Below are positions 34,015 to 49,805 of a stretch of 64,000 nucleotides of DNA, in pieces; within the stretch, counting starts at the first letter, position 1; each line of letters begins with the position of its first letter. This DNA comes from Bifidobacterium eulemuris (GTDB lineage: Bacteria > Actinomycetota > Actinomycetes > Actinomycetales > Bifidobacteriaceae), in the NCBI RefSeq assembly GCF_014898155.1, contig NZ_CP062938.1, forward strand, positions 1,922,001 to 1,986,000, in the 5' to 3' direction. Both the position numbers and the translations under genes were made by a program. The notes under the pieces were generated by a model. The model worked only from the letters and a program-made list of their open reading frames with translations, was not told the origin of the DNA and searched no databases.

Positions 34015-35157
34015 TTACCGTTTACGGTCGGATATCTGCTTAATCCACGTCGTCATATCGTTGGTGATAATCGATGAAGTGAATTTCCGCGCGACCTTGA
34101 CGGCATTCCCTTGCGCTTGGGCCAGCGCGTCCACGTCCGAGAGCAGACGCTCAATGGCATCCGCCAAGGCATCGGAATTGCCTGGTTCAACGAAAACCGC
34201 TCCATCTGCAACCATGCGGCGTTGAGGAGCGGTATCCGAGGTGATAACAGCGCAGCCGGCGGCCATCGACTGATACACCTTGTTCGGAACCACACGCAAT
34301 CCCTTAGGCGTTGATGAGAAAATCCCCAACGCAATCGTATGAGAGGCGACCATCCGGGGAAGTTCCTCCGGTTCCGCCCATTCGATGAACGTCACATTAT
34401 CCAGATCGTTGATGATGGAACGCACCTGGTCATAGTCCTGACCTTTGCCGATCAATGTGAACTTCGGCCTGATATTCCGCTCAGCCAGCTTCACAATCGC
34501 CTCAGCGATAACCGGCGCGCCTTGCAACGGCGTATACAATCCGTAGAACACCACGTCTCCCAAACGCTGTTCGGAAGAGGGCCTGGTGTTGCCTGCGTCG
34601 AACCATTCGCGAGGGGCGCCGACGGGCACGACCATTCCCTTATGCTGTTCCGCATCGGGCATCAAGCGAAGATGCTCATCGGTGTCGAGCAGCACCAATG
34701 TCGCGGCACGGATCGCCATACGATCGAGCTTGGCGAGCAGCTTGACCTTCAGCCCTTGGGCCCCACGGTCTTTGGCGGTATCTCCGGCAAAGATGAGGTG
34801 GTCAAGAATAATCGGCACATTCTTGAAGATATGCTTGGCGAGCAGCACGTCGAAATGCCCCATGTAACCGACCAGCACGGCGCTGGGGCGGCCATGCGCG
34901 CTCATCCAGGCTTTGGATTCTTTGGATAGAGAGCGCCACAAGCCGAGAAGATTCCAAGCGAATCCGAACAGCTTCCACGGTTTCTTGAGAATCTCCACAC
35001 GTTGTGCGGTGGAAAGCTCAAGCGGATGGTTGATCTCTTCGACTCGGCACCCATTCCGGCGTAGTCCGTCAATGAGAATGCCTACACGAGGATGCTTGCG
35101 GACGTTATACGTTCCGAAAGCCATCACTGTTGGAACGTTGTGTTTAATATCAGTCAT
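34015..35157 (-). CDS. GT4-type glycosyltransferase
   Basis: This 380-residue GT-B enzyme has an N-terminal Rossmann domain (MAFGTYNVRKHPRVGILIDGL) and a C-terminal donor domain (GDVVFYGLYTPLQGAPVIAEA, LIGKGQDYDQV, VVPNKVYQSMAAGCAVITSD). The usual E-x7-E is represented by a weaker K-VYQSMAAG form. It overlaps the preceding GT2 gene by 8 bases, so the two act together. The sugar added is unknown. Confidence 0.82.
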   Translation of the reverse strand: MTDIKHNVPTVMAFGTYNVRKHPRVGILIDGLRRNGCRVEEINHPLELSTAQRVEILKKPWKLFGFAWNLLGLWRSLSKESKAWMSAHGRPSAVLVGYMGHFDVLLAKHIFKNVPIILDHLIFAGDTAKDRGAQGLKVKLLAKLDRMAIRAATLVLLDTDEHLRLMPDAEQHKGMVVPVGAPREWFDAGNTRPSSEQRLGDVVFYGLYTPLQGAPVIAEAIVKLAERNIRPKFTLIGKGQDYDQVRSIINDLDNVTFIEWAEPEELPRMVASHTIALGIFSSTPKGLRVVPNKVYQSMAAGCAVITSDTAPQRRMVADGAVFVEPGNSDALADAIERLLSDVDALAQAQGNAVKVARKFTSSIITNDMTTWIKQISDRKR

Positions 35158-36187
35158 TGTTGTCTTCCATGGAGATCAGAGGACCTTCAGTGGGCCTGCC
35201 CGAGTATCCGCCAAACTCGTCCTGCTCACCCCAGATCTTCTGGAACGGAGCGGAATATTGAATCTCCTTGGTTCGCTCCAGCTGATCTTCGACGAGTTTG
35301 CGCTGGATGCGCTGCACCTCGGAGATGATCTGCAGCGCGAAGCACAAAGCGCTCAGCATGATCAGTGCAACGCCCAGCAGCAGCGATTGCAGATGGCCGG
35401 CCGTCATTCCCATACACGCGAGAATCAGGAAGCGGATAATCGGAATGAGACCGATGACACCGCAGATGATGCCGCCCCACTTGAAGATCACATTCGACTT
35501 GAACATCAGATAACTGCGAATGATGGCGCCGCCGGATTTGGCCATATGCTCGAAGATATTCGAGAACAGCCGTGACTCACGGGTTTTGGGATTAGTCGTG
35601 ATGGCGTACGAAGTGATGGGGATGCGCTTGTTGCCGGCTTGGATGATCGTCTCCATGCAGTAGCTGAACTCGGTGACGATGTTCAACTTGAGCAGCGAAT
35701 TCTTTGAGTAGGCGCGGAAACCGCTGGCCGCATCCGGTATGCGAGTGCCTGCGGCCTGATTCACCACCCAGGAGCCGAAAGATTGCATGCGCTTCTTGAA
35801 CCAGGAGAACTCGGCAATCTTCGATGTCTGCCGGTCGCCGACCACAATATCGGCCTCATGGCGCACAATCGGCTGTACCAGATCACCGATGGCTTCGCTA
35901 GGGTATTGGTTGTCGCCGTCGGTGTTCACCACGATATCGGCGCCATGCTTGAGCGCGTAATCCACTCCGTCGCGGAACGCCCGTGCCAGTCCCATCGGCT
36001 TGGCATGATGCACCACATGCTGCACGCCCAGAGCCCGAGCAACCTCCACGGTATTGTCGCTGCACCCATCATCGATGATCAACAGCTGAATGTCGTCGAT
36101 GCCCGGAATCTCCTTAGGCATATTCTCCAATACCAACGGAAGCGTTTTCTCTTCGTTAAGGCAGGGAATCTGAATGAACAAGCGCAT
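35150..36187 (-). CDS. GT2 polyprenyl-phosphate-sugar synthase-like enzyme
   Basis: This 345-residue GT-A enzyme has FIQIPCLNEEKTLPLVL at the start, LIIDDGCSDNT near 37, VNTDGDNQYP near 87 as metal site, and two hydrophobic segments near 240-290. This is the plan of DPM1/GtrB-like proteins that load a sugar onto undecaprenyl phosphate. It could supply a lipid-linked donor to one of the GT-C-like membrane proteins in the locus. Confidence 0.82.
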   Translation of the reverse strand: MRLFIQIPCLNEEKTLPLVLENMPKEIPGIDDIQLLIIDDGCSDNTVEVARALGVQHVVHHAKPMGLARAFRDGVDYALKHGADIVVNTDGDNQYPSEAIGDLVQPIVRHEADIVVGDRQTSKIAEFSWFKKRMQSFGSWVVNQAAGTRIPDAASGFRAYSKNSLLKLNIVTEFSYCMETIIQAGNKRIPITSYAITTNPKTRESRLFSNIFEHMAKSGGAIIRSYLMFKSNVIFKWGGIICGVIGLIPIIRFLILACMGMTAGHLQSLLLGVALIMLSALCFALQIISEVQRIQRKLVEDQLERTKEIQYSAPFQKIWGEQDEFGGYSGRPTEGPLISMEDNND

Positions 36188-36253
36188 AAAAAGCCTTACT
36201 GGTAAATAAAGATAACTAGTGTTGCCTAGAGAACCATAGTAGTCGATGCCGTG

Positions 36254-37681
36254 TCACGGGCGTAGCTTGGGCAGTGTGATTACACGACAGGCCAGCAAAA
36301 AGGCGATGAATCCCGCGAAGAGAATTGCATAACTGATTGCCAGAATAAAAAGATTCGTTATAGGGAAAACCGTGAACAATAGCCGAGTGGCAATCCAAAG
36401 GGCCGCTGCCGCTGCTATTGCTTTCCAGGTGTTACGCGTGATGATGTGACCGATGGTTCGAGTGACTTTGATGAAAGATATCAATGCCAGGACGCATGTG
36501 CATATCAGACTTGCAAAAGCTATCGCGTTGATCCCTCCCCATTTCGCGGAAATGACGAAAATAGGTACGACGATAATTAATGCAAGGATAGAAAGAACGT
36601 CAGAGAAACGATGTATGTTATATGAAGTCAAACACATGTTGAGCATAACAGTTAATCCCATAAAGAATTGTGATATAGCAAGACAAGTTAGTGCTATATT
36701 CGCTGTTGCGTATTCCTCTGTGTAAAACGAAACTAGTAATGATGAGCTAGATGCGGAAATAATAACAGCGATTGGTAGGATGAAAGAGCATGATATAAGC
36801 ATGCAATCTTGGATTTTTCTTATGGCCTCACTGTGGTTGTTGGCACCCACAAGTTTGGACACAACAGGGAGGATTACTGTTACTAACGCGGACATGAGAT
36901 AGTATGAAATTTTCCCGAAGTTGACGGCACCGGTATAATATCCAGCCATTTGGGCAGGCGCGATTACGGATTTAACAACAAGAGTGTCGATGCTGAGTAC
37001 TAAAGATACGACGATAAAGAAAAAAGAAAAACTCAGTGTATTCTTGGCTACATATTTGAAAGGAATCTTGTAATTATTCTGATGTGAGATTTTCTTTCGC
37101 GCTGGAATCAGTAGTAGAATACCAATGATGATCGATATCAAAAGAGCCAGAAGAAAACCACATTCCACGCCTATAACTGGTCTATCCTGAAAAATAAATA
37201 TAATAAGTGGTATTGCTGAGAGTTTTGCGATCGGATAGATTACGCCTAGAAGCGCACTGATTCCAAACTGTTGGAGACCATCATTTATTCCCAGAAGTAT
37301 GACGAATAGGCCATTGGCGGGAATTAAGAATGCCGCAATCTTGAAGTAAAATTCAAGAGACATGTCGTTAAGCACTATACCGAATGCCGAAGCTCCGAAA
37401 AAATTTAGGCAGAAGAAGAAGGCAATGATGATCATCTGGAATGCGATTGTTTTGCAGATGACATCTAGGGTATCAAAGCGGCGCATCGATATTTCTTTGG
37501 CTAACGACTGTCTAGCTCCATTGCTAAGGAACATATATTCGAAATCTAATACAGTGATTATTGTCCCTACAATACCATAGTTGATCGCAGACATGGTATT
37601 ACCCAGGAAAAAATGAAGTAAATACCCGCTAATGAAAAAAATAATATTGCTCGAAAGGCTAAAAATTACGCCACGTCTCAT
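36254..37681 (-). CDS. Second Wzx-type flippase
   Basis: This 475-residue polytopic protein has about 14 hydrophobic segments: GVIFSLSSNIIFFISGYLLH at the start, NYGIVGTIITVLDFEYMFLSNGARQ near 35, then FLSFFFIVVSLVLSIDTLVV-type segments. It belongs to the polysaccharide-transport MATE-like superfamily. It is strongly AT-rich, unlike the flippase at 19145-20665, and probably came with the GT2 gene next to it (24 bases apart). Confidence 0.85.
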   Translation of the reverse strand: MRRGVIFSLSSNIIFFISGYLLHFFLGNTMSAINYGIVGTIITVLDFEYMFLSNGARQSLAKEISMRRFDTLDVICKTIAFQMIIIAFFFCLNFFGASAFGIVLNDMSLEFYFKIAAFLIPANGLFVILLGINDGLQQFGISALLGVIYPIAKLSAIPLIIFIFQDRPVIGVECGFLLALLISIIIGILLLIPARKKISHQNNYKIPFKYVAKNTLSFSFFFIVVSLVLSIDTLVVKSVIAPAQMAGYYTGAVNFGKISYYLMSALVTVILPVVSKLVGANNHSEAIRKIQDCMLISCSFILPIAVIISASSSSLLVSFYTEEYATANIALTCLAISQFFMGLTVMLNMCLTSYNIHRFSDVLSILALIIVVPIFVISAKWGGINAIAFASLICTCVLALISFIKVTRTIGHIITRNTWKAIAAAAALWIATRLLFTVFPITNLFILAISYAILFAGFIAFLLACRVITLPKLRP

Positions 37682-37705
37682 TGAATATCACCAATCAAAA
37701 TCAGG

Positions 37706-38758
37706 TTAGCGGGACTTGTTAAGCATGGATCCTAGTAGATTAAGAATCCAGAACTGTCGATATTTGATAAGTGTGGCAAGCACTGACTGCTTGAATTCGA
37801 ATCTTGTGGTTCTTGTTTGAGAAAAGATGTTCTTAAAATCGGGATAATCAGAGAATAAATGATCAAACTGCTTCTTTCTCTCCCGGTAAGGGGCGGAATT
37901 ACCTGGGTGCATTGGTCCAAGGACGACACAGTATAGAAGGTCCCAAAGAACGCGGTATTGGTATAATTCCCACATGTCAGCACGATTTTTATATCTTTGC
38001 GTAATTACATCATGATATGTTCTTAATGTAATTTGCACATCTTTAAAGATGTCTGCGCGGTAGCGGTGGCTCTCTGAGGTTACAGACCAACGATAGTAAT
38101 ATGCGATGAAGTCCACTTTTTTTGCATGGGTGCAGTATGAGAGAGCAGTTAAATTAAAAATAATATCCTCTTCATGTTTGACTTCTGGGTGAAAAAGTAG
38201 TCCGTTCAGATTAAGAAATTCTCGCCGATAGATCTTTGCCCATGGCGTTGGCAACACTTTATGAGAAACTAGTGGAACATTATCTCGAAACCTATTCAGC
38301 AAGTCGGTCTGGAGTTTAGTGATATCTGAATCGGAAAAAGAGACCACGTTTCCCATGCGGTTATTTATTTGTCTTGGAAATGCACCTGTAAACTTCTCAT
38401 AGTTGAAATAAATAATTTCACTGTCTTCGTCATCAACCTTATGGAATACTTTAATAGCATTGTCTGCGATAATGTCGTCATTATCTGTAAAGCATACCCA
38501 TTTTCCTGTAGCATGCTTGAGAGCTTTGTTGCGGGCGCTGGTAATTCCCTGATTTTGCTGTGTGAAAACTTTGATAAAAGGATATTGTTTGGCATATTGT
38601 TGAAGAATACGCATGCTGCCGTCTGTGGATCCATCATTTACGCAGACGATTTCTATAGTGCCATCATCCTGTTTGATAATGCTGTCCAAAGTAGTCGGAA
38701 GGTGGTGTTCGGCGTTGTATACGGGAATCAGAAAACTAAAAGAAACATCTTGCGTCAT
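37706..38758 (-). CDS. GT2-family glycosyltransferase
   Basis: This 350-residue enzyme has SFLIPVYNAEHHLPTTLDSI at the start, IVCVNDGSTDGS near 35, CFTDNDDIIADN near 90 as metal site and KHEEDIIFNLTAL near 190. The start at 38758 is nine bases after AGGTAGG; two earlier ATGs at 38764 and 38767 are possible. It is AT-rich and paired with the second flippase. It is divergent from rmlA. Confidence 0.85.
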   Translation of the reverse strand: MTQDVSFSFLIPVYNAEHHLPTTLDSIIKQDDGTIEIVCVNDGSTDGSMRILQQYAKQYPFIKVFTQQNQGITSARNKALKHATGKWVCFTDNDDIIADNAIKVFHKVDDEDSEIIYFNYEKFTGAFPRQINNRMGNVVSFSDSDITKLQTDLLNRFRDNVPLVSHKVLPTPWAKIYRREFLNLNGLLFHPEVKHEEDIIFNLTALSYCTHAKKVDFIAYYYRWSVTSESHRYRADIFKDVQITLRTYHDVITQRYKNRADMWELYQYRVLWDLLYCVVLGPMHPGNSAPYRERKKQFDHLFSDYPDFKNIFSQTRTTRFEFKQSVLATLIKYRQFWILNLLGSMLNKSR

Positions 38759-38904
38759 GCTCATCATCCTACCTGTGGATGCATACCTCCAATGAGGAGA
38801 GATTGTTCAAGTTGATCTTGATTCTTGCGCGAAGACGTTGCGCGCGTACGGTGCTTGTAGACTAGGGATGTCGAGATTATTCTCATAGTTCATCAGGAGG
38901 TGCC

Positions 38905-39825
38905 ATGAAGGGTATTATTCTTGCGGGTGGCTCGGGTACGCGGCTGTATCCGTTGACGACGGTCACGTCGAAGCAGTTGTTGCCGGTGTATGACAAGCCG
39001 ATGATCTACTATCCGCTTTCAACGCTGATGCTGGCGGGCATTCGCGACATCCTGATCATCTCCACGCCGAAGGATCTGCCGAACTTCCAACGCCTCCTAG
39101 GGGACGGCAGCAGTTACGGGGTGAGTTTCTCATATGTGGAGCAGCCCAGCCCGGATGGTCTGGCCCAAGCGTTCCTGTTGGGTGAGGAGTTCATCAATGG
39201 TGAGCCGTGCGCTTTGGTGCTGGGAGACAACATCTTCTACGGCAACGGGTTGGGCGCGACGCTCAGGACCGCAGTGCGTATGGCCGAGTCGGGCGAGGGG
39301 TCGAGCGTGTTCGGCTACTATGTGGACGATCCGGAGCGCTACGGCGTGGTGGAGTTCGATGAGAACAAGAAGGCCATCTCCATCGAAGAGAAGCCGGCTG
39401 TACCGAAGTCGAACTACGCGGTGACGGGCCTGTATTTCTACGATGGTCGTGTGGTGGAGTTCGCCAAGCAGGTCAAGCCGTCGGCTCGTGGCGAGCTGGA
39501 GATCACGGATCTGAACCGCATGTATTTGGAGGATGGTTCCCTGCATGTGCGCACGCTGGGGCGTGGATATGCGTGGTTGGACACGGGCACGATGGATTCC
39601 CTGTACGAGGCGGGCGAGTTCGTGCGCACGGTCCAGCGGGCCCAGGGCCTGCCGATTTCGATCGTGGAGGAGATCGCGTTCGAGAACGGGTGGATCACCC
39701 GCGAGCAGTTGATGGAGTCGGCTGAACGCTACGGCAAGAGCCCATACGGACAACACCTCAAAGACGTCGCCGACAACAAAATCATTGACAAACCCAAAAG
39801 TTACGAGACTTCTGGCATAAAGTGA
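38905..39825 (+). CDS. rmlA: Glucose-1-phosphate thymidylyltransferase
   Basis: This 306-residue enzyme makes dTDP-glucose, the first step towards dTDP-rhamnose. It has the signature [16 protein letters not shown] (residues 3-18), [39 protein letters not shown] and [20 protein letters not shown], all typical of the RmlA long form. AGGAGG lies upstream of the ATG. The rml genes are not contiguous here: rmlB and rmlCD are about 5 kb away with foreign AT-rich genes between them. Confidence 0.96.
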
Positions 39826-39912
39826 GTGGTTCGGCATCTGCCATGGAATCAGCCTTGGCTGGACTCGGTACAATGTGTTCATGTTTGTGAGTGGAATCGG
39901 AAGGAACAACGT

Positions 39913-41961
39913 ATGTCTGTGATCGACACAGCGTCGGCGAAGCGGCTTGGAATTTATTGCTTTTTCGATAAAAATGGTCGTGCTGCGGACTTCATTGACA
40001 CGTTCTTAGCCGATTTGATGCAGAATCTTGAAGATCTGGTGATAGTTACCAATGGCAAGCTTTCTCCCCAGTCTCGAACTCTGTTCGAGAAATACACCAG
40101 ACAAATTGTTGTTCGTGAGAATAAAGGTTTGGACGCGGCGGCATATCGGCAGATTATGCTGGATATGGGATGGGAAAAGCTGTCGGAGTATGACGAAGTA
40201 ATTTGTCTCAACGACACCATTATGGGACCTGTCTATTCTTTTTCTGAGATGTTTGCAGAGATGGATTCCAGAGACGTTGATTTTTGGGGTATCACCATGC
40301 ACCATGATGGAAGAGCAGGCGATGATGTCATTCCCCCTCATGTGCAGATGTTCTGGCATTCGTATCGTCGTGATTTCATTCAGTCCAAGGCTTTTCAGGA
40401 ATACTGGGAACAGTATCCTTGTTATGACGATTACGAGTCGGTGACACATAAACATGAGATACCCTTCACCGGCTATTTTGAACGGTTGGGATTTAAGTGG
40501 TCTGTATACGTTGATTCTAAAGAGTACGCGTATCTGTCCGACTATCCTTTGCTGTTTATACCCACAGTGCTCATTAGAGAAAAGAAATGTCCTGTGTTTA
40601 AGCGCAGGTCCTTCTTTCTGGACTACAGCTTTGGTATCGGCCAGACAGCCGGCGAAACAGCATTGGAATTATATGAATATCTTAAATACGAGACTTCATA
40701 CGATACGGATCAGATTTGGGACGCATTGCTCTACTCGTACAATATTCACGATATTCGACGAACGATGCATTTGAATTATACATTGCCGACTCGTCTGCGT
40801 GCGCAAACCGATCTTTCTGATCAGCGTTCAGCGTTTATCTTCCACATATACTTCATGGATTTGTTGCCTATGACTTTCCGATATCTGTCATCAGTGCCAG
40901 CGATAACGGATTTGTACATTACCACCACAGCGGACAAGATACCCGTTGTTCAGGATTACATGCGGTCTCAAGGCATTACTCGTCCTGTCACATTTATCCC
41001 GGTTCAAAACAGGGGTCGTGATGTCTCAGCGCTATATGTGGCTGCGAAACATGTTGTTCTTGATGGCGGATATGATGTAGTCGGTTTCGCCCATGATAAA
41101 AAGTCTTCGCAGAATCTCGACAAAGGACACCATGGGACTGAATCTCGCGGTTTCTCGTATAAACTGCTTGAGAATACGCTGGGCTCTGAGGATTATGTGT
41201 ACAACGTTCTCGCGAAGTTTAAACAGAGTCCTCGTCTGGGCATGCTGACTCCGCCTCCTCCGATTCACGGTGTGTATTTCGCTCATACGATTCCTTCTGA
41301 TTGGGGAGCGAATTATGAAAATACGAAGACGTTATTGTCGGAGCGGTTGCATATCAAAGTGCCATTGGACTCGCTTAAGCCGTCTATGTCTGCCATAGGC
41401 TCATGTTTCTGGTTCCGTGTTTCGGCTTTGCGTCCGTTATTTGAAGCGGGATGGGAGTATTCGGACTTTCTGCCCGAAGATCTTATGCAAGAAGATGGTA
41501 CGGTGTCTCATGCAATTGAACGAGCCAACGGGTATGTCGTTCAGTCTCAGGGATATTATCCAGCTTGGGTGATGAACGACCAATTCGCTCGTATCGATCT
41601 TGACTCACTGTGGTATGCAACAAGCGAGTTAGTGGGTGCTCTTGGTCCCCGGCGTCAGGGGGAAACACTGTTGGAACTGGAATTATGGTCATACACAAAA
41701 AGTAATAGTAGATTCCAACGAGGTAAGGCCAGGATAATGCGGTCGATATATCTATGGTCTAAAGGTGCGGCACAAAATATAACAAAAGTGGCTCCGCCCG
41801 CATTGAAAAAACCGTTGTTCGGCATAATGCGTTTTCCGCTCAGTGTTTGGCGCAGTCTCAAATCTGTTTTGAGGAAAGCTCCATCAGAAGAATGGCTGTC
41901 TAATCAGGAGATAGATCGGCGAACTCAGAATGCGCTGAGAGGTATTAAAGAGGGCAACTGA
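39913..41961 (+). CDS. rgpF: Rhamnan synthesis protein F (RgpF family)
   Basis: This 682-residue protein belongs to the family that builds rhamnose polymers in streptococcal RGP and related loci. The N-terminal half has GIYCFFDKNGRAADFIDTFL, ENKGLDAAAYRQIM and ECLND-like metal-site wording at VICLNDTIMGPVY. The second half repeats the theme with IPVQNRGRDVSALYV, FAHDKKSS, and LGMLTPPPP, then PEDLMQEDGTVSHAIER near 540. The start at 39913 follows AAGGA; the open frame extends upstream without a plausible signal. Its place right after rmlA fits use of dTDP-rhamnose. Confidence 0.88.
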   Translation: MSVIDTASAKRLGIYCFFDKNGRAADFIDTFLADLMQNLEDLVIVTNGKLSPQSRTLFEKYTRQIVVRENKGLDAAAYRQIMLDMGWEKLSEYDEVICLNDTIMGPVYSFSEMFAEMDSRDVDFWGITMHHDGRAGDDVIPPHVQMFWHSYRRDFIQSKAFQEYWEQYPCYDDYESVTHKHEIPFTGYFERLGFKWSVYVDSKEYAYLSDYPLLFIPTVLIREKKCPVFKRRSFFLDYSFGIGQTAGETALELYEYLKYETSYDTDQIWDALLYSYNIHDIRRTMHLNYTLPTRLRAQTDLSDQRSAFIFHIYFMDLLPMTFRYLSSVPAITDLYITTTADKIPVVQDYMRSQGITRPVTFIPVQNRGRDVSALYVAAKHVVLDGGYDVVGFAHDKKSSQNLDKGHHGTESRGFSYKLLENTLGSEDYVYNVLAKFKQSPRLGMLTPPPPIHGVYFAHTIPSDWGANYENTKTLLSERLHIKVPLDSLKPSMSAIGSCFWFRVSALRPLFEAGWEYSDFLPEDLMQEDGTVSHAIERANGYVVQSQGYYPAWVMNDQFARIDLDSLWYATSELVGALGPRRQGETLLELELWSYTKSNSRFQRGKARIMRSIYLWSKGAAQNITKVAPPALKKPLFGIMRFPLSVWRSLKSVLRKAPSEEWLSNQEIDRRTQNALRGIKEGN

Positions 41962-41973
41962 GAAAGACTGTTC

Positions 41974-42023
41974 CGTCATGTGATTGGAGATGTCCAGCAA
42001 CCGACGTCTCCAATCACATGACG
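41974..42023. terminator. Bidirectional terminator between rgpF and ugd
   Basis: A perfect 17-bp stem (41974-41990 with 42007-42023; core CATGTGATTGGAGA) has a 16-base loop and lies between convergent genes. A short T-run follows on the + strand. Confidence 0.85.
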
Positions 42024-42027
42024 ACTT

Positions 42028-43272
42028 TTAGTCGCGCCTGAACAGGTCGCGCGTGAACACCTTGTCCGCCGCGTCGGACAGTTCCTCGCCCCATCGATTG
42101 GCGACGATGATGTCGCTATCACGCTTGAACTGCTCCAAATCATGCGTGACCGAGCTTCCGTGGAATTCGGGCTTGTCGAGCGTGGGCTCGTATATGACAG
42201 TGGCGATGCCTTCGGCTTTGATGGCCTTCAGCACGTCCTGAATCGCTGACTGTCGGAAGTTGTCCGAACCGGCTTTCATGGTCAGTCGGTAGATGCCGAC
42301 CGTCGGGTGCTCGACATTCCTGACCTTTTCCAGAATCTCCGATGCGATGAAATCCTTACGAGTGTAGTTGGCGTCCACAATGGCTTCGATAAGGTTTTGA
42401 GGCACGGAGCTGTAGTTCGCCAGCAACTGTTTGGTGTCTTTGGGTAGGCAGTATCCGCCGTAGCCGAAGCTCGGATTGTTGTAGCCTTCGCCGATTCGGG
42501 GATCCAGACATACGCCGTTGATGATTTCCTGCGTGTTGAGACCACGGGATTCGGCATAAGTGTCCAACTCATTGAAATATGCGACACGAAGAGCCAGATA
42601 TGTGTTGGCGAAAAGCTTGATCGCCTCGGCTTCGGTGGTGCCGACCACCAGTTCCGGAATGCCAATGGATCCATCCACGTTCTTGCGGTCCAACTCATCA
42701 GGTGCGGCACCTTGGGCAAGCAGGTCCACGAAGGTTTTCGCAGCGCTTACCGCTTCAGGGTCGTCCTGCGGAGCGCCCGCGACGATCCGGCTGGGATGCA
42801 GATTGTCATACAATGCATGCCCCTCGCGCAGGAATTCGGGCGAAAATAGAATGCGGGCATCTTGAAGCTTTTCCCGCAGCTGGGCGGTATATCCGACGGG
42901 AATGGTCGATTTGATGACGATCCACGCAGCGGGGCTGTGCTCCCGGACTGCGGCGATCGCCGCCTCCACGCTGGAGGTATCGAAGTAGTTCTTCTGTTCG
43001 TCGTAATTAGTGGGGGTGGCGATCACCGCGTATTCGCAGTTCGTATACGCTTCGGCGGGATCGGCGGTCGCATGGAAGCGCAACGGCCGTTCGCCGCTCT
43101 GATTTTTGTCGAGGAATTCGGTGATTTCCTTATCAACGATCGGGCTGACGCCATTGTTGAGCATCTTCACTTTTTCGGGAACGATGTCGAGCGCGTGCAC
43201 TTCGTGATGCTGGCTGAGCAGCAGTGCGACAGACAATCCAACATAGCCGGTTCCAGCAACAGCGATTTTCAT
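42028..43272 (-). CDS. ugd: UDP-glucose 6-dehydrogenase
   Basis: This 414-residue enzyme oxidises UDP-glucose to UDP-glucuronate. It has the N-terminal NAD motif [31 protein letters not shown] near 115, [20 protein letters not shown] near 140, and [15 protein letters not shown] near 250 with the catalytic cysteine. Its product implies that one polymer of the locus carries glucuronic acid or a derivative. An ATG start at 43272 with a host-like codon pattern. Confidence 0.94.
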
Positions 43273-43370
43273 AAACGAACCTACTTCGCATTAGCTATTG
43301 ATAACTGTTCAGCATCTTAGTCGCTTTGCTGAAGAATGTCTGCGCGCCGATGGCTCTGAGTCTCGGATTG

Positions 43371-44774
43371 TTAGATAGCGGGGGCAATCAGATCGACGAC
43401 GCTGGGAATTAGAGTAGCTGCAGCGAAACCTCCCAGAATCACCAATATAACAATGCGTTCCGTGCGTGAATTGCGCTTGGTAAGCGTATGCAACAGCATG
43501 GCCGTGACACACATCAGGCAGAAGTCGGCGAAGATGAAGGTTCGTCCCTGTGACGCGAACAGCGTGGGTGAAAAGCCCATAATGACGCGTGACATGAATC
43601 CCGCCAACAAGATGACTACGGTCGTGAGGAATTGCAAAGTACGACCGTAAACCCAATACAATTCAGCGAGAATCAGCGCGCAAAGCGCAATCTGACCGGC
43701 GATGAGCGTCACACGCAGTATGGAAACGTCGTATCCTGCGTAATTCATGATGGCGACGAGCCTGTCGGGCAGTAGCGGGGAAAGCGCACCCAAGAGGAAA
43801 CGTGCCATAAACGGCACGCATACAACGATGGCGATGGCTGCCTGCAGACCTCCACGTTTACCGATAGGGCGTTGCCGTAGAATTAAAAGTGCGAGTGTGA
43901 TGGCGAACACGCACATAAAAGCATTGGATAGGAACAGATACCTATCCAACGTCGTGGAAATGCCGAGATACGTCTTATCTGCCATGGAGAAATCGGCGTA
44001 ATCCGCAGGAATCTTGAAATTGTGGTTATTGGGCCACCAGGTTTGCGCCTCGGTGGTATTGCGGTTCGCGTTGCCAGGACACAGAAGAATGAACACGATG
44101 CCAATCAGGCTAATCGCAAGATGCGCCAAAAGAACTCCCAAAGGCAGTCGGTTCCAGCGAGAATACGCGACGAACACCAATGTGAAACCGAACAGCAGAA
44201 GCGCGGACTGTTCCACGTTGGCCGCAACCAGTGCGGAGGTCAGCGACAATGCGATAATCGGTTTTGACGGAGCTTGCGTTTTGCGAACAGTCGGTGAATC
44301 GTCATGCGCTCGCATATATCGCACCATGGTCGCCATTGAGAACATTCCCAACGCGAGGGGCCATGAGTAGTTCATGGTTGTCGCCACCCAGCCGGCGCTT
44401 GACATATCCATAATCGGATAGCAAGCCATGAGCAGCAGGATGATCCACGACATATAGGAGCGGTGCTGGTCGGAAGGCGAGACGATGCTGCGGATGGAGA
44501 CGAACAGCAGCAGACACATGGCGATATCCAAGACGTGCCATACCAAGAGCGCGTGGGTGATGGTCACAAGTGCCGCCTCGATGATCAGACGTGAACTCCA
44601 CGTTTGATATCGGGAGACCAGAAACTCGCCAAGCGTCTGGTTGTCAAGTACGGAACGAAACCATTCGAAATCGTTTGTGGTCGCATTCATCAGTAAATGT
44701 ATGGCGACGAGTCCCGCCAGCAGGGTCATCTCTGGTGCGAATTTGGTGAGAAACCTTTTGACGGAAGAACCCAC
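43371..44774 (-). CDS. Polytopic membrane protein, DUF6056/GT-C-like
   Basis: This 467-residue protein has about 11 hydrophobic segments. The first extracytoplasmic loop contains NDFEWFRSVLDNQTLGEFLV, with acidic residues at the place where GT-C enzymes bind lipid-phosphate sugar. The start is the GTG at 44774, preceded by AAGAGG; longer readings upstream enter the divergent promoter region. It stands head to head with a GtrB-like gene, the usual partner for side-chain glycosylation. Function is inferred. Confidence 0.65.
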   Translation of the reverse strand: MGSSVKRFLTKFAPEMTLLAGLVAIHLLMNATTNDFEWFRSVLDNQTLGEFLVSRYQTWSSRLIIEAALVTITHALLVWHVLDIAMCLLLFVSIRSIVSPSDQHRSYMSWIILLLMACYPIMDMSSAGWVATTMNYSWPLALGMFSMATMVRYMRAHDDSPTVRKTQAPSKPIIALSLTSALVAANVEQSALLLFGFTLVFVAYSRWNRLPLGVLLAHLAISLIGIVFILLCPGNANRNTTEAQTWWPNNHNFKIPADYADFSMADKTYLGISTTLDRYLFLSNAFMCVFAITLALLILRQRPIGKRGGLQAAIAIVVCVPFMARFLLGALSPLLPDRLVAIMNYAGYDVSILRVTLIAGQIALCALILAELYWVYGRTLQFLTTVVILLAGFMSRVIMGFSPTLFASQGRTFIFADFCLMCVTAMLLHTLTKRNSRTERIVILVILGGFAAATLIPSVVDLIAPAI

Positions 44775-44920
44775 GATTATCCTCTTCTCAGTTGGGGTCA
44801 ACGGCTTCCAAGCCGGGCTATTACATAGTGTATATCGTGACCGGCGTTGTTGGATGGTGTTCATGCGGCCACTCGACTAGCATGGTGCGAGAGAAGACGA
44901 GCGGCAGGAGGCCGGGCGAT

Positions 44921-45931
44921 ATGAGCGAAGAGCGGCATTCCATGCCACAGGAAGAGGGACGCAAAGACAGCGTTACCATTCTTGTCCCGTGCTACAACGA
45001 AGAGGAGGTTCTTCCCGCGTTGTTTGCTCGCCTTGATTTGCTGATCGCTTCGGAGCTTGACGAAGGGCGCGAGTCGAGTGTCTCCTACACGCTGCTGTTC
45101 GTGGATGATGGTTCGAAGGACGGGACCCAGGAGCTGATTCGCGAGTTCGCTCAAGGACGCGAAGATGTCTCCTATGTGTTTCTGTCCCGCAACTTCGGCA
45201 AAGAGAAAGCCATGTTTGCCGGCATCGAGGCCACGCATACTGATGGTTTGGTGATTATCGACGCCGACCTGCAAGACCCGCCTGAGCTGATTCCGGAAAT
45301 GATCGCGCTATGGAGGCAAGGGTATGACGACGTGTACGCTCGTCGACGTTCCAGAAAAGGTGAAAGCTGGCTCAAGAAAACCACTTCACGCATGTACTAC
45401 TCCCTGTTGCAGAAGATTACTAGCGTTCCAATTCAGCGTGATACGGGTGACTTTCGCTTATTGGATCGCAAATGCGTGGAGGCGTTGCGTGAGCTTCGCG
45501 AATCCGAGCGAAACTCCAAAGCTCTGTTCAGCTGGATAGGATTCCGAAAAATAGAATTCCTGTACGACCGGGATGCGCGGGCCGCGGGGAAGACGAAATG
45601 GAACTACTGCAAACTGATGCAGCTTGCTCTCGACGGCGTCACATCGTTCACCGTCGCACCGTTGCGTGCCGTGACATATTGCGGTGCCGTGGTCTCGGTT
45701 GGAGCCATTGTGTATGCGCTATATATCTTCCTGCGCACGCTCATTTTTGGCGCGGATATCCCAGGGTATGCCTCTCTACTGGTCGTCATGCTGGTGCTCG
45801 GCGGCATCGAACTGCTGGGACTGGGAGTCATAGGCGAGTATTTAGGCAGGATTTTTGTGCAAGTGAAAGGACGGCCGAACTATCTGGTTCAGGAGGAACA
45901 CCACGTCATGCGGACGAAGGATCATCGCTAA
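44921..45931 (+). CDS. GtrB-like undecaprenyl-phosphate glycosyltransferase
   Basis: This 336-residue GT2 enzyme has TILVPCYNEEEVLPALFARL near residue 20, LLFVDDGSKDGT near 60, LSRNFGKEKAMFAGIEA near 90, DADLQDPPELIPEMI near 115 and DTGDFRLLDRK near 190. Two hydrophobic segments follow (near 250 and 290) ending in GEYLGRIFVQVKGRPNY. This is the full GtrB/DPM-like set, so it should make an undecaprenyl-phosphate sugar. AGGAGG precedes the ATG at 44921. The likely acceptor enzyme is the divergent membrane protein at 43371-44774. Confidence 0.88.
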   Translation: MSEERHSMPQEEGRKDSVTILVPCYNEEEVLPALFARLDLLIASELDEGRESSVSYTLLFVDDGSKDGTQELIREFAQGREDVSYVFLSRNFGKEKAMFAGIEATHTDGLVIIDADLQDPPELIPEMIALWRQGYDDVYARRRSRKGESWLKKTTSRMYYSLLQKITSVPIQRDTGDFRLLDRKCVEALRELRESERNSKALFSWIGFRKIEFLYDRDARAAGKTKWNYCKLMQLALDGVTSFTVAPLRAVTYCGAVVSVGAIVYALYIFLRTLIFGADIPGYASLLVVMLVLGGIELLGLGVIGEYLGRIFVQVKGRPNYLVQEEHHVMRTKDHR

Positions 45932-46012
45932 TAGATAATAGAACCGTCTATTCGCGGGAGGGAAGGCTAGTTTGAACGCGCCAATTCCCCCGCCGGAGTC
46001 AAGCGCCTGTCG

Positions 46013-47041
46013 CTACCGCATATTCTTGATTTTGCGATCGTAGACGTATTTCTCCGCCAAACGCAGTTTTTGCGTCACGGCACATTGAATGCGCTGCGGC
46101 ACAGTGAGTTTTGCAAGCAGATCGGAAAGCTCTTTTTTATCCTGTTCGTGCAGATCACGATTCTCTTGGAGCGAGCAATCAGAGGCGGTGGTCTGTTCGT
46201 TCACAGAACCGACCACAGTGTAATAGCTGCGGCCGGGACGCACGCCTTTTTCGAGGCAGAGGCGGAAGTTCGTGGCACCGGCGGTGAAATTGTCGTGATA
46301 GAAACCGGTGCTGCGCTGTTTATGCGTCACCGATTCCGCAGACTGCAGCCAGTAGTACAGCACCACGTCGATATCCGCAACCTTGTCCATGCGACTGTAC
46401 AGCTCTCCAGCCACCATCACGTCCTGCGCGTACATGCCTTCCGGGAACCGCAGCCCCTCCCACAGTTCGCGGCGGTATAGACGGCACCAGTTCGCCTCGT
46501 TGAAATAACGTGCCTCCGTGTTGCGGCCAAGCTTGTCGCCGAGCAGACGCAGGGATTTGCAGAACACCGTTTGGTAGGCGGTGAGAGGATGCGCGAACAC
46601 GGTGACTTTTGAAGGTTCGTCCGCACCCCAAGCCGCTTCTTGCGCGACATCCGCGATCTGGCTGACACCGAACTGGCGCCAGCGGGCTTTGCTCATATCG
46701 GCGCCGGTTGTTTCGAGTGCGTGCAACAGGTATTCCAGATTGTGCCGGTCGAGAATGTCGTCATTGTCCGCGAAGGCGATGTAATCGCCGGACGCCGCGT
46801 CAAGCCCGGTGTTTTGGGCTTTGGCGATGCCGCCGTTGTCCTGATGGATCACCGTCACGCGCGGATCCCGCGCCGCGTATTCGTCGCAGATCTGCGGGCT
46901 GTCGTCCGTCGCGCCGTCGTCCACAAGAATAAGTTCCAGATTCGTGTGGCTTTGCGCGAGAATCGAATCCACACAGTGACGCAGATACTTCTCCGCGTTG
47001 TACACCGGCACGATAACCGAAATCAAAGGCGCAGAAGACAC
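46013..47041 (-). CDS. GT2-family glycosyltransferase
   Basis: This 342-residue enzyme has SVIVPVYNAEKYLRHCVDSI, LILVDDGATDDS, AFADNDDILDRHN near 90 and YAQDVMVAGELY near 195. It is GC-rich with host-like codon use. It is the last polysaccharide gene before the toxin-antitoxin operon. The sugar specificity is unknown. Confidence 0.87.
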   Translation of the reverse strand: MSSAPLISVIVPVYNAEKYLRHCVDSILAQSHTNLELILVDDGATDDSPQICDEYAARDPRVTVIHQDNGGIAKAQNTGLDAASGDYIAFADNDDILDRHNLEYLLHALETTGADMSKARWRQFGVSQIADVAQEAAWGADEPSKVTVFAHPLTAYQTVFCKSLRLLGDKLGRNTEARYFNEANWCRLYRRELWEGLRFPEGMYAQDVMVAGELYSRMDKVADIDVVLYYWLQSAESVTHKQRSTGFYHDNFTAGATNFRLCLEKGVRPGRSYYTVVGSVNEQTTASDCSLQENRDLHEQDKKELSDLLAKLTVPQRIQCAVTQKLRLAEKYVYDRKIKNMR

Positions 47042-47158
47042 AGCAACCCTTTCGACGCAAACGTATAACCCACCCAGTATGACACAATCTCTCGCACAGA
47101 TTTCAGGTCTGCGTTCGATGAGGATTGGCGTTGCCTCGCTATGATTCTGTCGTTTCTG

Positions 47159-47563
47159 TCAATCGGCGACGATATCTGTGGCGGAAATTCTGACGGGAAG
47201 CCATCGCGACATATCCTTACCTAAAAGATTCACTTGGGTTAGGACCGCCCAGCGGATAACAGGCCACAATTCGGCTACGAGCTCGTATGCGTTCGCTTCA
47301 GCGGTGGTTGCCTCAACAAAAAACACTGATTCCGCATCAATCGCGGAATCAGACTGTTTGTCTAGTTCATCCACAGAGGAATACCTGATGAATGCAACGG
47401 TTGTTTTGAGCAATAATGTATGCGATGACTTTGTGTTCGTTGGAGAAGTGGCGAAATTCACGCGCATGGCGTATCGTACATCGTCATCATCCGCTCCCAG
47501 CCATTTTACCGAAGCGCTTGATTCCGTTTGGCGAAATTGCGAGACCAAATTCCGTTCAGTCAT
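47159..47563 (-). CDS. SecB-like chaperone of a toxin-antitoxin-chaperone module
   Basis: This 134-residue protein has a beta-rich core (YAMRVNFATSPTN, LLLKTTVAFIRYS, ESVFFVEATTAEA) followed by AELWPVIRWAVLTQV and SRWLPVRIS. The order beta strands, then LWP-x-IR helix, then a short proline-containing strand matches SecB and the SecB-like Rv1957 of M. tuberculosis. Its ATG overlaps the antitoxin stop by 8 bases, so it is coupled to the antitoxin. In known TAC systems the chaperone protects the antitoxin from degradation. The family call is by eye and is the weakest of the three genes; it is slightly short for SecB. Confidence 0.6.
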   Translation of the reverse strand: MTERNLVSQFRQTESSASVKWLGADDDDVRYAMRVNFATSPTNTKSSHTLLLKTTVAFIRYSSVDELDKQSDSAIDAESVFFVEATTAEANAYELVAELWPVIRWAVLTQVNLLGKDMSRWLPVRISATDIVAD

Positions 47564-47945
47564 TTTGCACCAAGTTCCCTAGAGGATTGAACTGTGAAAC
47601 AAGTGGGTCAATCGATGAAACCGCAATATCGGCGGCATGCTCATTGTCGTTGAACAATATAGGTTCGGCATTGCCGAATTCATGAGCGTCGGGGCGAATC
47701 CGCACTCCCAGAGCCATGGCGTATTCATTCAGCTGCGATTGTGTAGGGTCGTAATCGTACTGTTCGAAATCAAGGACCTCTTGTACCGTAATGCCGAGAA
47801 AAGCGGCCAAATGCGCTGGATCGGTGATCTGTTTTCTGCGCTGTACTAGATCATGTTTAAGCTTCAACCAGTCCGACTCCAGAGTCGCGGCCAATCGCAC
47901 GTATTGCTCAGGAGTGTGCAGATCTTCAAGATTTAGGGAGGCCAT
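47556..47945 (-). CDS. HigA-like antitoxin with C-terminal tail
   Basis: This 129-residue protein has a helical N-terminus (VRLAATLESDWLKLKHDLV) and an Xre-type helix-turn-helix (LAAFLGITVQEVLDFEQ, then LNEYAMALGVRIR) at about residues 48-85. A 40-residue tail follows (ADIAVSSIDPLVSQFNPLG). In chaperone-dependent HigA proteins such a tail is the chaperone-addiction segment. AGGAGGAAGG precedes the ATG at 47945. It should neutralise the toxin at 47961-48503 and repress the operon. Confidence 0.72.
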   Translation of the reverse strand: MASLNLEDLHTPEQYVRLAATLESDWLKLKHDLVQRRKQITDPAHLAAFLGITVQEVLDFEQYDYDPTQSQLNEYAMALGVRIRPDAHEFGNAEPILFNDNEHAADIAVSSIDPLVSQFNPLGNLVQND

Positions 47946-47960
47946 CGTTCATCCTTCCTC

Positions 47961-48503
47961 CTAGACAAGGTCACTTATCGAATCGCCGAAGCAATATTCG
48001 CATCTTCTGTTGTTGGTGTCGTGTCCCCATTGAAAATGTTCGGCATAGCGATATCTGTCTTGCGCTTCGGCGGCATCTTGGTTTTGCCGTAACCGTACTT
48101 CCTCAGGTGTACCGTCAATCTGTTTGCGTACGAAACTCAAACCTACAAAATCAGGTCTCTTGGATAAATCTTCGGAATAGTACAGGCGGTATGGATTCCC
48201 GCGTATCCTCCAACGCAATTCCCATATGTCCGGCTGGGATACAATTTTATGGACTGGATCGCTGATTTGCCCCTGTATGGGATTCGTCGCATCTAGATCG
48301 CCTCTTTCTGCGTGCCGAATCAAGCCGAGAACGGTGCCTAACATGTAGTACTTTGCTCCTGCCGCAGGAAAATCCGCAGCGGCCACGCGCTTCAGATCAT
48401 CTTTCACGTAGCAATTCGGGTGCGCGGACGCGGCGGCGCTGGTGCAGCAGTGGAATAAGCGCGGGCGCTCTGCCAACTGAAAGCATACTGATTGTTCAGC
48501 CAT
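47961..48503 (-). CDS. HigB/RelE-like toxin
   Basis: The C-terminal 130 residues look like a RelE-superfamily mRNA interferase or Gp49-type protein: VSQPDIWELRWRIRGNPYRL, then VGLSFVRKQIDGTPEEVRL, matching the ELR-x10-R-x3 and F-x-KK-x-TP pattern of HigB. The 180-residue frame starting at 48503 has an extra N-terminus of about 30 residues with several cysteines; a start near 48410 would give a more usual length, but GAGGGGG before 48503 supports the long form. The antitoxin follows 15 bases downstream, the toxin-first order of higBA. Confidence 0.72.
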   Translation of the reverse strand: MAEQSVCFQLAERPRLFHCCTSAAASAHPNCYVKDDLKRVAAADFPAAGAKYYMLGTVLGLIRHAERGDLDATNPIQGQISDPVHKIVSQPDIWELRWRIRGNPYRLYYSEDLSKRPDFVGLSFVRKQIDGTPEEVRLRQNQDAAEAQDRYRYAEHFQWGHDTNNRRCEYCFGDSISDLV

Positions 48504-48654
48504 CGTCCACCCCCTCTATTCCTCTGTGAATTCTAATCCCCCATGATAGGGCATCTGTTGAGAGACTGCGCATTCGTGTGTTCTCCCGCCGAGCGGGAAC
48601 AGCCATGAGTTATGCGTTACGGTAGGGGTGTTTTTATTGCTTCGACCTTGGAAG

Positions 48655-48714
48655 TTGACAAGTCGGATGAGTGTGCGTTATAGTACTAGAGAAACGTTTC
48701 GACAAAACGTTTCG
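48655..48714 (+). promoter_or_regulatory. Promoter and operators of the LacI regulator
   Basis: TTGACA at 48655-48660 and TATAGT at 48679-48684 are 18 bases apart, a strong sigma-70-type promoter. Two palindromic LacI-type sites follow directly: GAAACGTTTC at 48691 and AAAACGTTTCG at 48705. This placement just after the -10 box would let the regulator repress its own gene. The same consensus occurs before the binding-protein gene. Confidence 0.75.
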
Positions 48715-48755
48715 ACAACGAAGTAATGCAGCGCCGATGCAAGGAAGGAGAGGTG

Positions 48756-49805
48756 ATGGCTGGAATCAAAGATGTGGCTCGCGCCGCCGGTGTGTCCGTC
48801 AGCACCGTCTCCTATGTGCTGTCCAATAAGCGTTCCATTTCCGCCGAAACCACGCGTAGGGTGATGGACGCCATTCGGGAGCTCGACTACACTCCCGACG
48901 CCAGCGCGCAGAAGATGCGTGGGGTACGCAACTCCATCATCGCGTTGAGCATGCCCATTCGCGGCGACATCAATCTCGCCAAGTACAACGCCTACTTCCT
49001 GCGCACGGCATGGGAGGCGAAGAACGCCGGCTACGATGTGCTCCTGCTCACCGGAGAGGACGTGGTTGGCGATATCCAGCGGGCGACGCGCAGCAACCTC
49101 GTCGATGGCGTGGTGCTTATGGATATCGAAGAAAGCGACGAGCGCGCCGCCAAGGCCTCGACCTACGCCAAGCCCACCGTGGCGGTCGGCTACCCCCTGT
49201 CTCATGACGGTTGCGCCTGCGTCGATGTTGATTTCGTGCAGGTGGGGCGTCAGGCGGCCGATTACCTCTACGACCGCGGGCATCGCAGCGTGATTCTGCT
49301 GCGCGACAATGAGCATGAGTACGAGCGCCGCTCGGGGTATGTGGTGCTGTTCCGCGAAAGCGTGATGGATCGCGCGGAGGAGCTCGGCATGTCCGTGCTG
49401 GAGTTCTCGAAAACGGACCTCGCTCACTTCGACGCGGTGGAGTTCGTGCATGAGATGTTCTCCGATGGGGGCATGGCGACGGCGATCATCAGCCAGGCGC
49501 CGGCAAGCGTGCTGGACCATGTGCTCAAGGAGCTGCAGGTTCGCGGTATCCGCGTTCCGGAGGATGTTTCGGTGCTGTCGTGCGGCACCTTCCTTGAAGG
49601 GGAGTTCATGACTCGCCCGGTCACCGAGATCCCGGTCATGCCGGAGCTGCTGGCTCATAAGGCCGTGAGCCTGCTGGTGGACTCCATCGAAGGTGACAGA
49701 GGCATCGCCGGAGTGGTCGATCTGGTCTCTCCCGTGATTCAGGAGCGGGGATCCGTGCTGGATCTTGCCGCCGCCGGGAGTGGAGGGAGAGTGGCGATGA
49801 CATAG
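48756..49805 (+). CDS. LacI-family transcriptional regulator
   Basis: This 349-residue repressor has an N-terminal helix-turn-helix (IKDVARAAGVSVSTVSYVLS), the hinge helix region around SAQKMRG, and a periplasmic-binding-like effector domain (VDGVVLMDIEES, VDFVQVGRQAADYLYDRGHR, VLSCGTFLEGEFMTRPVTEI). GGAGAGG precedes the ATG at 48756. It heads the sugar operon below it and should respond to the sugar or its breakdown product. Sites fitting the GalR/LacI consensus lie before this gene and before 50070. Confidence 0.92.
   Translation: MAGIKDVARAAGVSVSTVSYVLSNKRSISAETTRRVMDAIRELDYTPDASAQKMRGVRNSIIALSMPIRGDINLAKYNAYFLRTAWEAKNAGYDVLLLTGEDVVGDIQRATRSNLVDGVVLMDIEESDERAAKASTYAKPTVAVGYPLSHDGCACVDVDFVQVGRQAADYLYDRGHRSVILLRDNEHEYERRSGYVVLFRESVMDRAEELGMSVLEFSKTDLAHFDAVEFVHEMFSDGGMATAIISQAPASVLDHVLKELQVRGIRVPEDVSVLSCGTFLEGEFMTRPVTEIPVMPELLAHKAVSLLVDSIEGDRGIAGVVDLVSPVIQERGSVLDLAAAGSGGRVAMT

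Follow-up and report, generated by a model that had tools for sequence, protein, structure and literature searches.

A probable toxin-antitoxin-chaperone operon with a predicted SecB-fold protein in Bifidobacterium eulemuris

Described systems and the three-gene locus

In known toxin-antitoxin-chaperone (TAC) systems, the antitoxin is protected by a chaperone (PMC6377645; PMC5105189). The mycobacterial TAC has been described as stress-responsive (PMC4257090). In Escherichia coli CmdTAC, a phage capsid protein takes the chaperone; the antitoxin is then degraded by ClpP, and the toxin becomes active (PMC11618068). E. coli HigBAC is reported to be triggered by the major tail protein of phage lambda (as cited in PMC11980606), and MqsRAC gives protection from T2 (PMC9519451). 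Here, a three-gene locus is described in 64,000 nucleotides (nt) of Bifidobacterium eulemuris (contig NZ_CP062938.1, positions 1,922,001 to 1,986,000), herein referred to as the window. With good confidence, we interpret this locus as a HigBAC-type TAC operon sharing the mechanism of the known TACs.

The locus consists of three consecutive open reading frames (ORFs) on the minus strand, encoding a toxin (47961..48503, 180 codons), an antitoxin (47556..47945, 129 codons), and a SecB-like chaperone, also called here the third protein (47159..47563, 134 codons). The toxin stop and the antitoxin start are separated by 15 nt (47946-47960), and the antitoxin and third genes overlap by 8 nt (47556-47563). 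An earlier sequence-only reading had proposed three such genes with a 15-base and an overlapping junction, and the ORFs and both junctions were found where it had placed them.

That reading had also compared the gene order to higB1-higA1-Rv1957 of Mycobacterium tuberculosis. The order is indeed the same, namely toxin, helix-turn-helix (HTH) antitoxin with a tail, and SecB-fold chaperone, and HigB1 and Rv1957 are the top Foldseek matches of the window toxin and third protein, respectively. The two systems differ in several respects. No significant sequence similarity was found between their proteins, the window toxin carries an additional conserved Cys/His segment at each end, no motif of the WHRLSSYR type (PMC6377645) was seen in the window tail, and the window chaperone is shorter (134 vs. 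184 residues in the 5mtw chain). E. coli HigBAC (C496) and CmdTAC, compared by description and not by sequence, likewise combine a toxin, an antitoxin, and a SecB-like chaperone. The toxin of HigBAC is of the HigB type (PMC11980606), whereas CmdT is an ADP-ribosyltransferase (PMC11618068).

The toxin has a predicted RelE-type fold, and its nearest solved structure (first Foldseek match) is HigB1 of the mycobacterial TAC, in line with the HigB/RelE-like assignment made from the letters. Its match to the HigB/Gp49 family (Pfam: PF05973; E 0.0073, 16.8 bits) is below the gathering score of 23.9. Residues E95, R97, R106, and K127 are invariant in 7/7 alignment rows. Compared by spacing, E95 and R97 would correspond to E66 and R68 of HigB-TAC, and the E-x-R and R-9-R spacing is the same as that of E66, R68, and R77, the lysine being at +21 vs. 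+18 (PMC9098466). Because of the fold and these four conserved residues, the toxin is most likely a ribosome-dependent mRNase. The QPDIWELR motif of the toxin core (residues 90-97; 48213..48236, minus strand) is invariant in all seven rows, except for Q, which is found in six. Two further segments on the same strand are conserved in all seven rows: an N-terminal one (residues 5-35; 48399..48491) with invariant C7, H18, C20, and C31, and a C-terminal WGH...CxxC one (residues 159-171; 47991..48029) with invariant W159, G160, H161, C168, and C171. Metal binding by the N-terminal Cys/His segment is a guess. The public Bifidobacterium oedipodis toxin (P0005, NCBI) starts 34 residues later than the ORF and lacks this N-terminal segment.

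The window antitoxin matches the HTH_3 family weakly (E 0.036, residues 46-83, below the cut-off). Above-cut-off matches were found for relatives, including an aligned family member (G119, E 3.5e-6) and a relative from outside the family (G398, E 1.4e-10), and no Pfam family was matched by the antitoxin of B. oedipodis. After the HTH comes a tail of some 44 residues (86-129; 47559..47690, minus strand), so that the proposed Xre HTH with a 40-residue tail is borne out, with a weak domain score. Identity to the B. oedipodis antitoxin is 89% for residues 1-28, 84% for residues 29-85, and 52% for the tail, where the non-synonymous difference (pN 0.285) remains below the synonymous one (pS 0.625). 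A tail that changes quickly and is yet constrained is compatible with a candidate chaperone-addiction region; such segments are variable in sequence and length (PMC5105189). The tail does not end with LAA, which is mentioned for other TAC antitoxins (PMC11618068).

In the proposed mechanism, the Xre-type antitoxin would be unstable owing to its C-terminal tail. The SecB-fold chaperone would bind the tail and shield the antitoxin from proteolysis, keeping the toxin silent. Titration of the chaperone, most plausibly by a freshly synthesized structural protein of a phage, as happens in CmdTAC and in HigBAC of E. coli, would lead to loss of the antitoxin, and the toxin would then halt translation. 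By analogy with the described systems, the window module would thus show toxicity, neutralization, chaperone dependence, proteolysis, and a phage trigger.

Structure and sequence of the third protein

The predicted structure of the third protein, obtained without templates from a 7-sequence alignment and with a moderate pLDDT (predicted local distance difference test), has a sheet of four strands and, after it, a long helix, a fold like that of the SecB export chaperone. Its nearest solved structures are Rv1957 (first Foldseek match) and bacterial SecB. Foldseek ranks 1-16 are all SecB with probabilities of 0.94-1.00, and the remaining 34 listed rows have probabilities of at most 0.51. By eye, the strand order, the long helix, and the W/F-P-x-x-R and LP motifs follow the SecB order. 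The WPVIR motif (residues 100-104; 47252..47266, minus strand; W and R invariant in 14/14 rows) is, also by eye, in the position of E. coli SecB FPYAR. The LPV motif (residues 122-124; 47192..47200, minus strand; P123 invariant in 14/14 rows) may, by visual alignment, correspond to L154-P155 of Rv1957, residues that contact the addiction peptide (PMC6377645).

No match to PF02556, the SecB family, was found for the window protein in the Pfam scan, and no scanned bifidobacterial third protein was above its cut-off. The best relative (L052) had 19.4 bits (cut-off 26, E 0.001), and the G398 third protein also had no SecB match in Pfam. Nothing significant was found in PDB sequence searches with the third protein and two profiles or with hhalign. 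When 13 chaperone-type proteins were scored against a 7-sequence SecB profile, two (L048 and L052) were above all 500 shuffles; the window score was equalled by 5/500 shuffles, that of L040 by 122/500, and that of L050 by 116/500. In the reverse test, 1/7 SecB proteins was above all shuffles. The score of the G398 third protein against the SecB profile was reached by 1/500 shuffles, and when this protein was added to the profile only 1/13 (L052) was above all shuffles, the window protein being reached by 3/500. These mixed scores leave SecB homology undecided by sequence alone. A count of 33 TAC chaperones outside PF02556 has been published (PMC4257090), so a match to this family does not define a TAC.

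The sequence-only reading, which had assigned SecB by eye, stood as regards the predicted fold, the feature whose absence it had taken as telling against a TAC, and was left undecided as regards sequence, the PF02556 search it had proposed having returned nothing for the window protein. The moderate pLDDT, the small alignment, and the weak sequence scores, including the 5/500 shuffles, would suit a modelling coincidence, with the third protein being another small beta-sheet protein such as a second antitoxin. However, the template-free model ranked SecB first to sixteenth, far above all other listed structures, and the strands, helix, and motifs occur in the SecB order. We consider such a coincidence very improbable, and the SecB fold of the third protein is supported by structure prediction.

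Recurrence of the unit in other genomes

The same three-gene order was found in B. oedipodis (L001, genome G140), where the first junction is a 17-nt gap and the second an 8-nt overlap. Protein identity between the two species is 76% for the toxin, 74% for the antitoxin, and 65% for the third protein. The corresponding pN/pS values are 0.138/0.725, 0.152/0.701, and 0.205/0.646, synonymous change being near saturation. All three genes are preserved as proteins between the window and B. oedipodis. The order was also found in more distant members of the family, with identities of about 10-40%, and is confirmed to be more than chance.

In the profile search with the third protein, 15 of the 189 family genomes were matched at E <=0.1, with 16 matches in total. 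Twelve full-size third ORFs (118-153 codons) were found: two in the genome of the window (G000) and one each in G140, G119, G471, G472, G076, G072, G099, G483, G104, and G094. Unlike the SecB export chaperone, all of these full-size copies adjoin an antitoxin-type gene, located directly upstream on the same strand (12/12). For the antitoxins, HTH_3 is above the Pfam cut-off in seven cases (G119, the second G000 copy, G094, G072, G099, G483, and G104), below it in two (the window and G472), and unmatched in three (G140, G471, and G076), although the latter align with antitoxin relatives. In 8/12 cases, an intact toxin-type ORF is found before the antitoxin. The toxin of G119 is split over two overlapping frames, and no toxin was found in G099, G483, and G104, either in the ORF lists or with profiles of both toxin kinds (12 kb for G099, 3.3 kb for the others). 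Antitoxin-chaperone pairs without a recognizable toxin (L048/L083, L050, and L051) resemble the 'AC' systems of PMC4257090.

These data also bear on whether the locus is a plain two-gene HigBA-type pair, in which a co-transcribed SecB-fold protein serves some other client and the antitoxin works independently. In keeping with such a pair, no addiction motif is recognizable in the tail, sequence-level homology of the third protein to SecB lacks proof, and no third-protein match was located close to the antitoxin relatives in G136 and G079, the one in G136 being followed instead by a gene of the dnstrm_HI1420 antidote family. In contrast, all twelve full-size third genes follow an antitoxin-type gene, and G099, G483, and G104 keep both genes although no toxin was recognized; this retention indicates a link between antitoxin and chaperone. 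We therefore regard the two-gene pair as improbable, and the TAC-module interpretation of the locus is supported. The antitoxin relative in G136 (L013 452-2317) itself lies between an Abi_2 gene (E 2.5e-40) and the dnstrm_HI1420-family gene (E 1.8e-16), with no chaperone gene.

Four of the 16 third-protein matches and one toxin match were not counted as modules. G477 has a C-terminal chaperone remnant without recognized partners, G144 and G102 have weak third-protein matches and ORF lists without a module, the weak third-protein match of G467 has an E of 0.0071 when re-scored, and G340 has a weak toxin match with no module seen.

Another TAC-like unit, which has diverged even more, was found in G137 (L016 921-2350), where an HTH-type gene was detected by antitoxin similarity. 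The third gene downstream of it matches profile A8 (E 5e-11), and the preceding ORF weakly matches a second kind of toxin, described below (E 6.4e-4); neither of these two proteins matches Pfam. Because this unit was missed by the main profile search, the twelve full-size third genes are a lower bound. By eye, the G137 toxin-type ORF also has a terminal CxxC.

With the toxin profile, three of the 296 class genomes were matched at E 0.01: the window's own genome, G340, and G398, which is outside the family and has toxin, antitoxin, and third genes. Matches to PF02556 above the cut-off were found in none of 121 family genomes (with weak matches below it in G116 and G014), in 2/296 class genomes, and in 3/227 phylum genomes, and TAC-like operons are among these loci. 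Four actinobacterial TAC-like loci (L019, L057, L060, and L061) share the three-gene layout, with toxin and antitoxin named by eye. Unlike in bifidobacteria, PF02556 is above the cut-off in L019 and L057, which were used as layout controls; it is below in L060 (E 7.2e-4) and L061 (E 1.4e-3).

The second module in the genome of the window is diverged (C1 ~2302020-2303610; L039, L077). It consists of a toxin-like gene of a different kind, an HTH_3 antitoxin gene (E 2.5e-11) whose product has a longer tail, and an overlapping gene of the SecB-like type, and has three-gene kin in G072 and G094. Profile comparison shows the two kinds of toxin to be related (hhalign probability 67.6%, P 5e-5). Two genomes among 1631 were reported to have two TAC or antitoxin-chaperone systems, so two per genome are uncommon but known (PMC4257090).

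Genomic context, mobility, and possible role

A copy of the module was found on an IMG/VR viral contig (L040), where integrase, toxin, antitoxin, chaperone, and endolysin genes follow in this order with some other ORFs between them. This single contig was retrieved with both the toxin and the chaperone. No viral contig was found for the second-kind toxin L052, no named phage record matched the L040 chaperone or toxin, and a plasmid search with the non-bifidobacterial control chaperone of L019 gave no match. In G094 (L084) the module adjoins an endolysin gene, and in G076 it is near an integrase fragment.

In the window, the genes flanking the module were named by eye as a glycosyltransferase-type gene and a lacI-type regulator. 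As far as window position 48653, the lacI region of B. oedipodis shows 88% identity. Beside the orthologous lacI, where the window has the TAC, B. oedipodis has a gene for an AbiLi/AriA-like AAA ATPase (L065:2643-4067; PADLOC E 5.9e-24), and this flank is a possible hotspot of defence genes. B. oedipodis carries its own TAC on a different contig, in the neighbourhood of AAA_16, HipA_C, and ResIII/helicase genes.

The copies on the viral contig and by the endolysin gene, the different chromosomal place in B. oedipodis, and the stress-responsive mycobacterial TAC (PMC4257090) would fit a TAC that serves mainly to maintain mobile DNA or to respond to stress rather than to defend against phages. 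On the other hand, three TACs of E. coli whose toxins differ, CmdTAC (PMC11618068), MqsRAC (PMC9519451), and HigBAC (cited in PMC11980606), are reported to be anti-phage, and the AbiLi-like gene adjoins the orthologous lacI. A maintenance or stress role is thus a possibility to be taken seriously, though we doubt it.

Look-alike ATPase genes were seen by eye next to the B. oedipodis TAC (L001:2351-3493) and the second TAC (L077:2423-3613); Pfam AAA_16 is shown for the former only. Surface-polysaccharide-like genes, including glycosyltransferases, a flippase, and rfbA-like and Wzz-like genes (by eye), occur by several TACs (window 35150-47041, L077 6150-11946, L079 9656-10543, and L083 1044-2540). 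Surface polysaccharides often serve as phage receptors.

Upstream of the toxin gene, about 40 nt 5' of its start, a CCTATCAT box (48543..48550, minus strand) is a candidate -10 region, with 8/8 bases the same in the upstream region of B. oedipodis. No minus-strand site was detected in the sigma-70 scan, and the operator-palindrome scan of the leader found a single imperfect overlapping 9-nt palindrome (48564-48575). No Rfam family was found in 46900-48800, which gives no support for a non-coding reading. A terminator-like hairpin of 11 pairs with a T run lies within the chaperone gene (47326-47352, minus strand) and is only partly preserved in B. oedipodis; it could attenuate chaperone expression or be due to chance.

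No bifidobacterial TAC was known to the sequence-only reading, and none was found in the full-text literature, with most subscription papers outside its scope, or in the available text of a paper combining 'SecB-like' with Bifidobacterium; in its accessible parts, a toxin-antitoxin-based taxonomy study including Bifidobacterium names neither SecB nor a chaperone. Rather speculatively, these modules might form a separate TAC lineage of at least two diverged kinds, of which this genome has two, exchanged by bifidobacteria and prophages. Its Pfam-invisible SecB-like chaperone might sense bifidophage structural proteins, and its HigB toxin might be held by a metal site between the N- and C-terminal Cys/His segments.

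Bifidobacteria are of importance in the gut and as probiotics. An earlier TAC survey partly relied on a SecB profile (PMC4257090), and since the bifidobacterial modules are below the cut-off of this profile, TACs may be undercounted. A genome with two TACs, together with mobile copies, would allow a direct test of whether the chaperone sets what a TAC senses.
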